This document shows positions 17,375 to 31,213 of a stretch of 64,000 nt of DNA, piece after piece. Source of the stretch: Clavibacter nebraskensis NCPPB 2581. Lineage in GTDB: Bacteria; Actinomycetota; Actinomycetes; Actinomycetales; Microbacteriaceae. The position numbers were made by a program, and so were the translations under genes. Every line of letters starts with the position of its first letter. The first letter of the stretch is position 1. The notes beneath the pieces were generated by a model that did no database searches, was not told the origin of the DNA, and saw nothing but the letters and a program-made list of their open reading frames with translations. Location of the stretch: contig NC_020891.1 of assembly GCF_000355695.1 (NCBI RefSeq), positions 2,294,001-2,358,000 of the forward strand. The letters are read 5' to 3'.

Positions 17375-17398
17375 TCAGTTGTTGAACCGAAACTCCAC
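17375..17398 (-). pseudogene. ychF-like 3' end left at the integrase-side junction
   Basis: Read leftwards from 17398 this gives GTG GAG TTT CGG TTC AAC AAC TGA, that is VEFRFNN-stop; the two preceding codons add N-V, giving VVEFRFNN. YchF proteins commonly end in VVEFRFNV or close variants. The intact ychF (30143-31213) instead ends VVEFRHS. The simplest reading is that insertion split ychF at its last codons and this is the displaced tail. It could also be the tail supplied by an earlier element at the same site, since TTT and CGG are not typical of host codon choice. Confidence 0.8.
17391..17398. repeat. Attachment-site core, integrase side (attL)
   Basis: AACTCCAC occurs here and at 30156-30163. 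The alignment extends: 14 of 16 bases match between CGAAACTCCACGACGT here and CGGAACTCCACCACGT there. It lies 24 bp upstream of the integrase start, where serine integrases usually keep one att end. Confidence 0.75.
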
Positions 17399-17413
17399 GA
17401 CGTTACGTCGTGG
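17395..17413. repeat. Perfect 9-bp inverted repeat overlapping attL
   Basis: CCACGACGT, one T, then ACGTCGTGG. It overlaps the att core and ends 9 bp before the integrase ATG. It could be an integrase-binding arm of the attachment site or an operator at the integrase promoter. No equivalent is present at the right end, so it belongs to one arm only. Confidence 0.6.
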
Positions 17414-17422
17414 TGAGGCATT

Positions 17423-18724
17423 ATGAGCACCATGACCAAGCGTGCCGCCCTGTACCTACGCCAATCCAAGTCCGATGACGAGGGCATCGAGCGCCAGACC
17501 GAGCGTACTGCCGCCCTGGCCACGGCCCGCGGCTGGCAGGTGGCCGACACGTTCATCGACAACGACGTGAGCGCCAGCAAGGCGCGCGGGAAGGACACCG
17601 CCTGGGGCCGGATGCTGGCAGCGTCGGACGAGCTTGATGTCGTGATCGGTGTGGACCTTGACCGCGTGGTGCGCTCTACCCGAGACCTGAATACGCTCAT
17701 CGACCACGGGCTGGCGCTGGTGACGCTCGACGGCGAGATCGACCTGACCACTGCGGATGGGGAGTTCCGGGCGTCCATGCTGGCCTCCATCGCCCGGTTC
17801 GAGGTCCGCCGCAAGGGCGAGCGACAGACCCGCGCCAACAGCCAACGGGCTGCGAAGGGCGGAGTGCCCAAGGGCGTGCGCCTGACCGGCTACACAACCG
17901 AGGGCCTGGTCGTCCACGACGAGGCTGCCGTGGTGCGGGCGCTCTTCGAGGGATTCGCCACCGGGCTGACGCTGCGCACGCTGTCCCGGGACCACGGCCT
18001 GACACCCAGCACCGTCCGCACAATCCTGACGAACCCCCGCTATGCCGGGCGGCGCGTCTACAAGGGAGAGATCGTCGGCACGGGTGACTGGGAGCCGCTG
18101 GTGCCGGGTGAGCTATTCGACAGCGTCAACCGCGGCCTGGCCGACCCCGCACGCAAGACCAACCGCACGGGTTCCACGGCACGTAAGCACCTGGGCACCA
18201 GCCTGTTCCGCTGCGGCGAGTGCAGCGATCACCCCACCGTGCGCACGGCGGGCTCGGGCGGCCGGTACTGGTGCCCGGCGTGCAGCCTGGTGCGGACGAT
18301 GTCCCCCATCGACCACTTCGTACTCCGCGTGGCAGAGGCCCGCCTCGCCGACCCGGCCTTCCTGGCGACGCTCTCGCCTGACGTGGACACCGACCCGCTG
18401 CGCGCCGAGCACGCCTCCCTCACCGAGCGCAAGGCGGACCTCGCTGGCCTGGTGGCAGACGGCACTATGTCGCGGGCCGACGTGAAGGGCGCGGTTGAGC
18501 GCCTGAACGCACGCATGGACGAGATCGACCGTGCGCTGGCTGGTGCGGACCGCCCGGTAGACATGGCCGCGGCGTACGCGAGCATGCTGGACGGCTTCGA
18601 CACGCTGGGCCTGGACCGACAACGGGCGCTGATCGACACCCTGATGACTGCCCATCTACTGCGGGCACCCCGGGGCAGGCGAGGCTTCGACCCGGACACG
18701 GTGCGCATTGTCTGGCGCAACTGA
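17423..18724 (+). CDS. Large serine recombinase (integrase)
   Basis: A 433-residue large serine integrase. The catalytic domain opens with ALYLRQSKSDDEGIERQ, catalytic S15; DLDRVVRSTRDLNTLI and GEFRASMLASIARFEVRRKGERQ carry the other active-site arginines and the long E-helix. The recombinase domain (about 150-245) includes TILTNPRYAGRRVYKG. A zinc ribbon follows with C264, C267, C284 and C287, then a coiled-coil arm (about 325-380) and a short tail. The order is standard, though 433 residues is at the short end of the family. Ribosome site GTGAGG lies just before the ATG. It sits beside attL and is the obvious enzyme for insertion into ychF. Confidence 0.93.
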   Translation: MSTMTKRAALYLRQSKSDDEGIERQTERTAALATARGWQVADTFIDNDVSASKARGKDTAWGRMLAASDELDVVIGVDLDRVVRSTRDLNTLIDHGLALVTLDGEIDLTTADGEFRASMLASIARFEVRRKGERQTRANSQRAAKGGVPKGVRLTGYTTEGLVVHDEAAVVRALFEGFATGLTLRTLSRDHGLTPSTVRTILTNPRYAGRRVYKGEIVGTGDWEPLVPGELFDSVNRGLADPARKTNRTGSTARKHLGTSLFRCGECSDHPTVRTAGSGGRYWCPACSLVRTMSPIDHFVLRVAEARLADPAFLATLSPDVDTDPLRAEHASLTERKADLAGLVADGTMSRADVKGAVERLNARMDEIDRALAGADRPVDMAAAYASMLDGFDTLGLDRQRALIDTLMTAHLLRAPRGRRGFDPDTVRIVWRN

Positions 18725-18779
18725 CCAGCTACTCGTACCCCGGCTATGCCAACCGTGTCCGGTCTGTCAGCATCAGGTC

Positions 18780-29310: not shown

Positions 29311-29619
29311 CTAGATCAAGACTAGGCCATCGGCCGTCGAGGCACGCTCGACCAGGTCCTGAAAGGTGTCGTGCTGGTAGACCCGATCGTTAGGGCATGC
29401 CGCCACCGGGCACTTGAAGTGGGGGTGCGGGTAGCCTTCCAAGCCATCCGCGGTGCTGCGGAGGTACCACTCGTCATCGGCACCGTCAGCACGCACCCAG
29501 GCGCTCTCGGTGGTAGACCACTCATAATGCCGCAGTCGCACCAGGCGATTGCGCGCGTGGGGCTTCGCCTTGGTACCCCGGCAGACAACCAGGACTCGGC
29601 TCTTGACAACAGCTTGCAT
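29311..29619 (-). CDS. Small protein with a zinc-finger-like site
   Basis: A 102-residue protein. MQAVVKSRVLVVCRG starts it; RLRHYEWSTTESAWVRADGADDEWYLRS looks like a beta sheet; PHPHFKCPVAACPNDRVYQHDTF contains two cysteines and several histidines that could bind zinc. It lies alone between the replication operon and the last gene of the element. Start 29619 is chosen because the protein-like sequence begins there. Family not recognised. Confidence 0.5.
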   Translation of the reverse strand: MQAVVKSRVLVVCRGTKAKPHARNRLVRLRHYEWSTTESAWVRADGADDEWYLRSTADGLEGYPHPHFKCPVAACPNDRVYQHDTFQDLVERASTADGLVLI

Positions 29620-29709
29620 AACCACTATTGTGCCGCGCGCCTGGGCGCCGAGCAACCGGACCTAGCAAAAGCCCAGGTGAGGCGGCGTGTTGCGCTCGCT
29701 AGTGACCCC

Positions 29710-30018
29710 TTACTTTGCCGGCTTCGCTGCGGTCCTTGAGCGAGGACGGCCCGGGTTCTTGTGGTTCAGCTCCTTGTCCTTGGCGGCCAAATCAAACTGC
29801 TCTTCAAACCGATTGAAGACCTGAGCCCGACCGTCGATCAGACCCTGCTTGTAAACGGCCTCCAAGAGCTGAGCCAAGCGCACGCCCTTATAAAGGCTCA
29901 TGTCTTCCTGGACCTCCTCTAAAGCACTACCCACTTTTACGCCAGCGTAAACGGGGATTGTCCCGAGGGTCGGAAGGTCGATGTTGTGGCGGCGGTGACC
30001 GCGTGGTGCTGGTGTCAT
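29710..30018 (-). CDS. Small basic protein near the right end of the element
   Basis: A 102-residue protein with a basic tail (NPGRPRSRTAAKPAK). The middle reads VGSALEEVQEDMSLYKGVRLAQLLEAVYKQGLIDGRAQVFNRFEEQF, predicted helical. It is the first gene inside the right junction and read away from ychF. Size, charge and position would fit a DNA-binding accessory factor such as an excisionase-type protein, but no helix-turn-helix could be assigned. Confidence 0.5.
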   Translation of the reverse strand: MTPAPRGHRRHNIDLPTLGTIPVYAGVKVGSALEEVQEDMSLYKGVRLAQLLEAVYKQGLIDGRAQVFNRFEEQFDLAAKDKELNHKNPGRPRSRTAAKPAK

Positions 30019-30142
30019 AGCTGAAAGTTAGCGACAAAGCGGGTTCAGCACGACCCCTAAATCGCGTGTCACCGGCGGCCTGGCCCCACCTCGCTTCGCG
30101 AATAAACATCCGGCACACCCGGCGCGGCGCGCATGCAGATGC

Positions 30143-31213
30143 CTAACTGTGACGGAACTCCACCACGTCGCCGTCCTGCATGACGTACTCCTTGCCCTCG
30201 ATGCGGGCCTTGCCCTTGGAGCGCGCCTCGGCGATGGAGCCGGTCTCGACCAGGTCGTCGTAGGAGATGACCTCGGCCTTGATGAAGCCCTTCTCGAAGT
30301 CGGTGTGGATCACGCCGGCCGCCTGCGGGGCCTTCCAGCCACGGCCGATGGTCCAGGCGCGCGTCTCCTTCGGGCCCGCCGTCAGGTAGGTCTGCAGGCC
30401 GAGGGTCTCGAAGCCGATGCGGGCGAGCTGGTCGAGGCCCGACTCCTCCTGGCCGGTGCTCGCGAGCATCTCGGCGGCGTCCTCCGGGTCGAGCTCGATG
30501 AGCTCCGACTCGATCTTCGCGTCGAGGAACACGGCCTGCACGGGCGCCACGAGGGCGGCCAGCTCCGCGAGCTTGTCCTTGTCGCCGAGCACCTGCTCGT
30601 CGACGTTGAACACGTAGATGAAGGGCTTGGCGGTCAGCAGGCCCAGCTCGCGGACGGGCTCGAGGTCGATCGAAGAGGCCGACAGCGGCTTGCCCGAGTC
30701 GAGCCACTCGCGCGCGGCCTTCGCGGTCTCGAGCACGACGGGCTCGATCCGCTTCGTCTTCAGCTCCTTCTCGTAGCGCGGCTCGGCGCGCTCGAGGGTC
30801 TGCAGGTCGGCGAGGATCAGCTCGGTGTTGATGGTCTCCATGTCGCTCGCGGCGTCGACGCGGCCGTCGACGTGCACGACGTCCTCGTCCTCGAAGCCGC
30901 GGACGACCTGCGCGATGGCGTCGGCCTCGCGGATGTTCGCGAGGAACTGGTTGCCGAGGCCCTCGCCCTCGCTCGCGCCGCGGACGATGCCCGCGATGTC
31001 GACGAAGGAGACGGGGGCGGGCAGGATCCGCTCGGAGCCGAAGAGGCCGGCGAGCACCTCGAGGCGCGGGTCCGGGAGGTTCACCACGCCCACGTTCGGC
31101 TCGATCGTCGCGAACGGGTAGTTCGCGGCGAGCACCTGGTTCTTGGTCAGGGCGTTGAAGAGCGTCGACTTGCCGACGTTGGGGAGACCGACGATCGCGA
31201 TAGTGAGAGCCAC
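30143..31213 (-). CDS. ychF: YchF (OLA1-type) GTPase/ATPase
   Basis: A 356-residue OBG-superfamily ATPase that binds ribosomes. VALTIAIVGLPNVGKSTLFNAL (GTG start) carries the P-loop; FVDIAGIVRGASEGEGLGNQFL is G3; FNVDE replaces the NKxD of true GTPases, explaining the ATP preference of the family. The C-terminal TGS domain includes AGVIHTDFEKGFIKAEV and ends VMQDGDVVEFRHS. Homologues normally end VVEFRFNV or similar; here the last three codons come from the inserted element, so the protein is one or two residues off at the end but otherwise intact. Confidence 0.96.
   Translation of the reverse strand: MALTIAIVGLPNVGKSTLFNALTKNQVLAANYPFATIEPNVGVVNLPDPRLEVLAGLFGSERILPAPVSFVDIAGIVRGASEGEGLGNQFLANIREADAIAQVVRGFEDEDVVHVDGRVDAASDMETINTELILADLQTLERAEPRYEKELKTKRIEPVVLETAKAAREWLDSGKPLSASSIDLEPVRELGLLTAKPFIYVFNVDEQVLGDKDKLAELAALVAPVQAVFLDAKIESELIELDPEDAAEMLASTGQEESGLDQLARIGFETLGLQTYLTAGPKETRAWTIGRGWKAPQAAGVIHTDFEKGFIKAEVISYDDLVETGSIAEARSKGKARIEGKEYVMQDGDVVEFRHS
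30156..30163. repeat. Attachment-site core, ychF side (attR)
   Basis: AACTCCAC, the second copy of the core at 17391-17398, here inside the codons for VEF of ychF. Sequence left of it (the last codons CGT CAC AGT TAG of ychF, read leftwards) belongs to the element. Confidence 0.75.

Follow-up and report, generated by a model that had tools for sequence, protein, structure and literature searches.

What separates the ychF gene of Clavibacter nebraskensis NCPPB 2581 from a second stretch of DNA that reads as a ychF end, and is this gene terminus also used as a landing site in related genomes? The locus was analysed within a window of 64,000 nucleotides (NCBI RefSeq assembly GCF_000355695.1; contig NC_020891.1, positions 2,294,001 to 2,358,000 of the forward strand), and coordinates given without a genome or contig label refer to this window. 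A first-pass annotation had described a 12.8-kb element with a serine integrase inserted in the last codons of ychF, both junctions being readable. This description holds, as the displaced tail is the native gene end in 16/17 congeneric genomes and a sister element occurs in a genome of another genus (G092). We consider it highly probable that the element was integrated at the ychF tail, that this tail is a recurrent landing site, and that stacks of units resembling those of the staphylococcal cassette chromosome (SCC) have formed behind it.

Junctions and crossover at the ychF 3′ end

The intact ychF gene, coding for the redox-regulated ATPase YchF, is located on the minus strand (30143..31213; GTG start at 31213, TAG stop at 30143-30145), is identified by the TIGR00092 equivalog model (414 bits; cut-off: 279) and is 96-99% identical to its congeneric orthologs. 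Its final codons, GTG GAG TTC CGT CAC AGT TAG, encode VEFRHS and the stop (protein tail VVEFRHS), and the minus strand from 17398 to 17375 reads GTG GAG TTT CGG TTC AAC AAC TGA, encoding VEFRFNN and the stop. The comparison with relatives lacking the element, which had been proposed as a check, was made with 17 same-genus genomes in regions of 9.5-20 kb each. The ychF tail is VVEFRFNN in the 16 congeners mentioned above, which retain an uninterrupted attB, with a near-empty site in G006; G002 alone ends in VVEFRFGGTSGAGSK and none of the 17 genes ends in EFRHS. The stretch at 17375..17398 (minus strand) thus represents the displaced native ychF tail and forms the right half of attL.

The 8-mer AACTCCAC is present at 17391-17398 and 30156-30163, where it encodes the VEF of the two ychF ends when read leftwards, as first annotated. 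A third copy is found at 22222-22229, and this count barely exceeds chance (mean: 0.81; at least three copies in 4/100 shuffles), so that the evidential weight of the junctions lies in the reading frame and context and not in the 8-mer alone. The junctions deduced in the first-pass annotation can be retained, but the 8-mer is not the core: the sequence common to both junctions is 11 bases long and includes a single mismatch (GTGGAGTTYCG); the crossover is placed at the GT with which it begins.

The attP was reconstructed by joining the two outer half-sites, and its dyad symmetry was scored over 22 positions against shuffled sequences. In the rebuilt window attP, 15/22 positions are symmetric about the GT that opens the core, a value reached at any centre by a fraction of 0.0015 of the shuffles. 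The G092 attP is symmetric at 14/22 positions about the same GT (0.006 of shuffles), while the attP of a third genome, G272, is weaker (12/22 at the same position; 0.11 of shuffles), its right half having been chosen by hand from the site at 773, which reads GA. The arms of the host attB lack clear symmetry. A dyad that is imperfect and centred on a non-palindromic dinucleotide is as seen in elements of large serine integrases, and the symmetry centre shared by the window and G092, although their integrases are close relatives, is the main evidence for a predicted crossover at the first two core bases (GT; 17397-17398 and 30162-30163). These two positions delimit an element of 12,765 bp. The attL site includes, on the minus strand at 17397..17421, the left attP arm ATGCCTCACCACGACGTAACGTC and the crossover dinucleotide (17397-17398). 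The attR site (30139..30163, minus strand) consists of the host left half GACGTG, the core with GT followed by GGAGTTCCG, and the element right arm TCACAGTTAGGCAT, which encodes EFRHS and the stop; this arm, identical or slightly varied, also ends ychF in G092, G272, Microbacterium hominis NBRC 15708 and eight more genomes. With a crossover at GT, the last five codons of ychF, GAG TTC CGT CAC AGT (EFRHS), would be element-derived, and the T/C difference within the core, which lies to the right of the crossover, likewise suggests that the attB of this strain itself carried TTT and that EFRHS is element sequence.

We suggest that the attP of a circular element recombined with an attB made up of the last ychF codons, the large serine integrase cutting at GT. 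The attP arm would bring in a YchF terminus with EFRHS replacing EFRFNN, and YchF would stay intact because this arm carries an in-frame, stop-terminated end. The junctions, the displaced native tail and the symmetry centre are read from the sequence, and from these we infer the enzymatic reaction.

Recurrent use of the site in the Microbacteriaceae

The integrase of G092 shares 77-79% identity with that of the window, is preceded by a ychF tail and lies 7.7 kb from a ychF gene ending in RHS, so that the G092 element resembles that of the window in its type of attL and shares its replacement terminus. The M. hominis NBRC 15708 integrase (78% identity) is located on the opposite side of the site compared to the window, with its ATG 23 bp after the stop of a ychF gene also ending in RHS. 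More distant integrases adjoin the ychF tail in G272 (44% identity; ychF ends in RHS) and in G156 (36% identity), where ychF ends in RFQATSGQK and is found on a different contig from the integrase. Nine IMG/VR stretches that carry the native tail pattern were examined: a related integrase directly adjoins the tail in four, another four are ordinary ychF ends, and one is neither. The four integrase-bearing contigs (L201, L203, L204 and L206) are 11-49 kb in size. L206 harbors genes for a major head protein, a repressor and a tyrosine integrase and L201 one for a phage-type exonuclease, while the scanned proteins of L203 and L204 gave no match. The phage-type genes in L206 and L201 suggest that prophages probably also make use of the ychF 3′ site.

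In a tree of 29 rows, the five ychF-site integrases that were found first form one side of a branch with a support of 97/98, a distribution reached in 0/500 shuffles. When the four IMG/VR integrases are added, the nine cluster (2 changes; 0/500 shuffles), but they do not form a supported clade, being grouped in 36% of the bootstrap trees, and the set includes one very long row (G205). A single origin of the nine is thus neither demonstrated nor excluded by the tree. Matches to the window integrase were found in 416 of 50,697 phage records, all below 60% identity (top-ranked: Arthrobacter phage Soondubu, 37.8%), and all matching plasmid integrases likewise fall below 60%. The nearest solved structure by sequence is the catalytic domain of the TP901-1 integrase (1.6e-8).

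The altered ychF tail can be used as a marker. The pattern GTGGAGTTCCGNCACAGNTA, with at most one mismatch, is found in 13/398 family genomes belonging to 9/85 genera (the window included), compared to 5/398 for the reversed pattern. Its 15 occurrences comprise ten ends of full-length ychF genes, one ychF end located at the edge of a contig, and four places further downstream or on separate contigs. In genus g76, five of 13 genomes match a longer tail pattern with two mismatches. Across the order, a scan allowing two mismatches retrieved 3/396 genomes (again including the window) and one for the reversed pattern; one match, in G688, has no ychF nearby and was set aside as a likely chance occurrence. 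In a genome of another family of the order (G461; L158), a core of the type encoding HS is located approximately 250 bp behind a native-tailed ychF, suggesting that the site may be used outside the Microbacteriaceae. A second type of replacement tail, F-x-x-TS-x-K, is observed in three genera (FGGTSGAGSK in G002, L033; FQATSGQK in G156, L107; FGSTSTSKG in G289, L155). The 20-base form of the HS tail, sought as a free phage or plasmid source, has 0 matches in the viral contigs, and a 17-base form has one, with no ychF or integrase in the stretch examined.

The ychF 3′ end would thus serve as a family-wide landing site for this integrase group, accommodating islands and probably prophages. The view of ychF as an uncommon target, put forward in the first-pass annotation, requires widening, as in this family the predicted site is a recurrent hotspot for islands and small inserts and, probably, prophages.

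Stacked units behind ychF and their origin

A relaxed scan of 543,659 bases for both site types yielded sites with a uniform orientation, which agrees with that of ychF in every stretch containing the gene, and none in the reversed sequence; in G250, G289, G407 and the G156 integrase contig, ychF lies outside the stretch and the orientation is set by the sites themselves. A second scan, of 18 regions (213,175 bases), likewise gave 0 sites on the opposite strand and 0 in the reversed sequence. These regions are not a random sample, having been picked by an integrase homologue (17 genomes) or a homologue of a cassette protein described below (G271; G133 and G141 by both), while G156 and G272, also from the integrase-homologue set, were handled apart. 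Extra cores behind ychF are present in 5/17 of the integrase-homologue genomes (G290, G098, G101, G288 and G285), in G271, and in three of the 17 congeners (G002, G017 and G010). Stacks are found in G055 (six sites), G272 (five), G322, G098, G288, G407, G289 and others. The SCC-like partitioning by repeated att sequences, with units lacking a recombinase, is as such a feature of relatives and not of the window itself. Recombinase-less units are also known for SCC.

From the site scans, 35 units were listed by hand, with open reading frames (ORFs) called by length and codon-position GC content. Among the 21 units smaller than 1.7 kb, 14 contain one predicted ORF, three contain none and four contain two or three. 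The single ORF is on the ychF strand in 13/14 cases (binomial: 0.0009; 0.0017 when a homologous pair is counted once), and across all units the predicted ORFs show a weak strand bias (41 to 26; one-sided: 0.043). The most compact units are those of G078 (626 bp; 184 codons), G399 (622 bp; 184 codons), G289 (418 bp; 122 codons), G082 (472 bp; 133 codons) and G250 (404 bp; 120 codons). In these five, the ORF begins 31-59 bp from the core start and occupies 85-90% of the unit.

Pfam comparison of proteins from the units (20 from larger and seven from small ones) showed the larger units to carry type I restriction and Mrr genes (G017), a methylase and specificity subunit (G002), transporters (G101) and a PD-(D/E)XK nuclease (G098), while several proteins had no match. 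In the congener G017 (L034, 10765-18669), a five-gene operon encoding type I restriction proteins together with an Mrr nuclease ends at a degenerate attL-like site. A reverse transcriptase-like gene (RVT_1; 1e-9), a possible defence gene, lies inside a unit of G272 (L104, 864-2426).

The approximately 620-bp units of G078 and G399, which belong to two genera, are homologous and share 82.9% identity over 619 bp, compared to 71.9% for the ychF genes, which argues that the unit moved separately from ychF. Homologues of the G399 cassette protein are encoded in 21/398 family genomes. They are located at ychF or a ychF-tail site in G078, G399 and G271, and approximately 1.9 kb behind ychF, without a second core, in G133. 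In the remaining 17 genomes no core was found in the flanks examined (up to 1.5 kb on each side), indicating that this cassette gene is not confined to the ychF site. A 42% identical relative is encoded on one Curtobacterium plasmid.

Under the favoured model, repeated use of the site would leave co-oriented units stacked one after another with the core between them, their cargo ranging from one gene to whole restriction operons; units without an integrase would either owe their transfer to integrases of this group acting in trans or be shrunken remnants. The second of these origins, that large islands have undergone internal deletions leaving one gene between att remnants, with the strand bias due to selection for read-through from ychF, has close to an even chance of being correct. 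It is consistent with the degenerate cores and ychF-end remnants behind ychF in G002, G010, G011 and G322, and with the units tested lacking symmetric attP arms. The unit shared by G078 and G399, however, has the same borders in two genera, is more conserved than the ychF genes and is flanked by cores with 0 mismatches on both sides.

It is possible, though rather unlikely, that the single-ORF units are mobile cassettes, moved in trans by serine integrases that target ychF, with the ychF promoter driving their transcription as in an integron. Their prevalence among the small units, their near-uniform strand, the tight packing of the five most compact, the apparent transfer of the G078/G399 unit between genera independently of ychF and the stacking of units in G055, G272, G407, G289 and G098 would all fit such a capture system. 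Against this, the tested units do not show the full attP symmetry, a third of the small units hold either no ORF or two or three, the ORF calls rest on length and codon-position GC, and the strand bias over all ORFs is weak; the units were furthermore collected by site and are non-random, the orientation in G250, G289, G407 and G156 being set by the sites. No full-length integrase of the group was detected among the PF07508 matches in the small-unit genomes other than G407, although some of these genomes are incomplete: the genomes of the listed units, G055 and G407 are 78-98% complete and mostly in many contigs (G399: 81%; G289: 89%; G055: 83%). G082 has an integrase fragment at a contig edge, which is closest to the G272 integrase. 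The broader proposal, that the Microbacteriaceae ychF 3′ end may act as a serine-integrase platform for gene capture, in which promoterless single genes with a half att arm are moved by integrases of resident islands or prophages and expressed with the ychF operon, like an integron with an unrelated recombinase, is marginally more doubtful still.

Several observations weigh against integration at the ychF tail, and its repetition, as a complete account of the locus. The activity of the integrase, the excised circle and attP itself are predictions from sequence. A search of 11 kb did not reveal the far junction of the M. hominis element, and the small units tested (G078, G399, G289 and G082) are without long attP dyad symmetry. 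In 13/17 congeners, ychF ends in FNN and is followed by other DNA in which no second core was found, so that this integrase does not explain every insertion behind ychF. The second site in G010 is a duplicated ychF end, and longer duplicated ychF 3′ ends (approximately 100-470 bp), which a single attP by attB event does not produce, border units in G002, G010, G084 and G197. The duplicated ends in G002 are located at 4079-4289 and 6320-6421 (L033, in ychF orientation). Such duplications give the impression that a larger part of ychF is carried, or displaced, by some elements.

Cargo, flanks and relation to known integrative elements

The element encodes, on the plus strand, the large serine integrase of 433 amino acids (17423..18724), with Resolvase and Recombinase domains that both score above the curated cut-offs (PF00239: 5e-24; PF07508: 3e-9; phrog_95 integrase: 2e-71). 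It is followed by a hypothetical protein without Pfam, PADLOC or PHROGs match (18780..19331), a GIY-YIG nuclease-like protein and possible restriction enzyme (19486..20034; PF20815: 7e-18) and a type II-like DNA methyltransferase whose exact start is uncertain (20039..21358; PF01555: 2e-39; PADLOC MTase_II: 3e-178). The minus strand carries genes for an McrC-like restriction component (21355..22719; PF10117: 5e-18), an McrB-like AAA+ ATPase (22716..23735; PF07728: 1e-17; PRK11331 McrB: 2e-30, under the equivalog cut-off) and, upstream of the latter, a protein taken from the ORF list with an uncertain start and no PADLOC, NCBIfam, PHROGs or Pfam match (23680..24372). On the same strand are located a small serine recombinase of the resolvase or invertase type (24387..25067; PF00239: 1e-37), with copies in the G092 element (82% identity) and M. 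hominis (69% identity), a protein without Pfam or PHROGs match common to both of these elements (25535..26116; approximately 50% identity), an AAA ATPase of the replication-helicase type (26572..27855; PF13481: 1e-24; PHROGs primase/helicase families) and a primase-polymerase (Prim-Pol; 27852..28577; PF09250: 2e-34; phrog_5852: 2e-21). Prim-Pol and the AAA_25 protein, encoded by two genes in the window, are fused in one gene in G092 and M. hominis.

A Pfam scan of 17 element proteins revealed no relaxase or transfer domains, with further small ORFs and non-Pfam relaxase models lying outside the scan. Given the restriction genes (GIY-YIG nuclease with methyltransferase, and McrBC-like), the primase/helicase pair and the small resolvase, this is most likely an integrative element that is non-conjugative and resembles a plasmid or satellite. 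That it is instead a defective prophage with its structural genes lost is improbable. Related integrases do adjoin the ychF tail in the four IMG/VR contigs, one of which includes a major head protein gene; however, no structural PHROGs match (capsid, tail or packaging) was found among 15 element proteins scanned, the McrC-like protein and the methyltransferase having been left out, and the resolvase, one further protein and the replication gene pair are common to the window, G092 and M. hominis, although the phage-gene search did not cover the other ORFs of the latter two. A coincidental repeat, with the element inserted elsewhere or no element at all, could account for the near-chance count of AACTCCAC, but it can be dismissed given the native tail, its in-frame replacement, the recurrence in G092 and G272 and the symmetry centre shared with G092. 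Insertion linked to a tRNA gene was also discarded, as the window holds none.

The far host flank of the hotspot is formed by a SCO1664-family gene (14364..15131, plus strand; TIGR03843: 362 bits), which is present in all 18 genus regions, the window's own included, with 82-100% identity. It is separated from ychF by approximately 47 bp in G006 and by 15,011 bp in the window, and in all congeners but G006 (16/17) the DNA between ychF (68-69% GC) and this gene has a GC content of 51-65%. The comparison of G002 with G006, in which both flanks align, further supports the insertion model. Between the displaced tail and the SCO1664-family gene, outside the 12.8-kb element, lies a segment of approximately 2.2 kb (15132..17374) with a GC content of approximately 53-57%, which encodes a GmrSD-type restriction protein (15565..17223, plus strand; PF03235: 6e-33; PF07510: 3e-17; PADLOC HEC-06: 2e-119). 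No counterpart of this low-GC segment was found in the 17 congener regions, and it is a second, separate acquisition at the hotspot. The state prior to integration was thus probably a ychF gene ending in FNN followed by this segment, an arrangement akin to that of most congeners. The first-pass annotation had held that absence of 17268-17400 from an empty-site relative would speak against the insertion; 15132-17374 is indeed without a match in the congener regions examined, but this does not refute the insertion, because the segment is itself an acquisition. Beyond the integrase of the window, no other large serine (PF07508) or tyrosine (PF00589) integrase is encoded within 20 kb of ychF in the 18 genus genomes.

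The closest parallels are SCC and the Enterococcus cassette chromosome (ECC), which are inserted in the rlmH 3′ end. With these the ychF-site elements have in common a large serine recombinase, an attB within the final codons of a conserved gene, which is left intact, variable cargo, dyad symmetry at the att sites, and repeated att sequences that subdivide the DNA behind the gene (PMC4723332, PMC6222049). In Staphylococcus stepanovicii, 15-bp direct repeats reportedly divide the DNA behind rlmH into segments, and two strains agree little in what this region contains (PMC4723332). ECC is described as using the same gene as SCC, with large serine recombinases, dyad-symmetric att sites and several attR in 16/32 elements (PMC6222049). 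The elements described here differ in being anchored in ychF and not rlmH, in occurring in another phylum (actinobacteria), in a single integrase taking the place of ccrA/B/C (NCBIfam CcrA/B/C models score the window integrase at 25-37 bits against cut-offs of 700-900), in carrying Prim-Pol, in units reduced to one gene and in the related integrases found in IMG/VR contigs. The phiC31, Bxb1 and TP901-1 type of integrase is similar in domain make-up, in the GT-centred attP dyad and in insertion into protein-coding genes, whereas the present element targets the ychF tail and replaces it in frame, and the identity of its integrase to every matching phage record is below 60%. An integrase family common to prophages and islands at one conserved gene is likewise described for dusA, although reportedly at the 5′ end of dusA and not at a 3′ end as for ychF (PMC4482086). 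Chromosomal integrons also present short single-ORF units, mostly in one orientation, downstream of a fixed site, but the recombinase here is of the serine family, a housekeeping gene anchors the arrays, which are short, and no tyrosine integrase (Phage_integrase, IntI type) is encoded near ychF in the same 18 genomes.

Among the best-ranked matches in the open-licence literature, none describes elements in the ychF 3′ end, in agreement with the first-pass annotation, which knew of no described element using this site. The only ychF case retrieved is the pneumococcal prophage PPH005, whose attB is located upstream in the ychF promoter region, where integration alters the promoter (PMC6375853, PMC8637289). 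This prophage belongs to a host of a different phylum, and its 14-bp core, CCCTTTTTGTGTTA, is unrelated to the codons used here.

The ychF site provides a defined 11-base core with a predicted crossover position, and YchF tails ending in RHS, RSS or F-x-x-TS-x-K constitute a searchable signature for islands and restriction operons in the Microbacteriaceae, as well as a supply of serine integrases with predictable att sites. Should the single-gene units prove mobile, they would represent gene-cassette capture by a serine enzyme. We suggest that ychF may be added, in actinobacteria, to the housekeeping genes whose last codons host a mobile community, as rlmH does for SCC.

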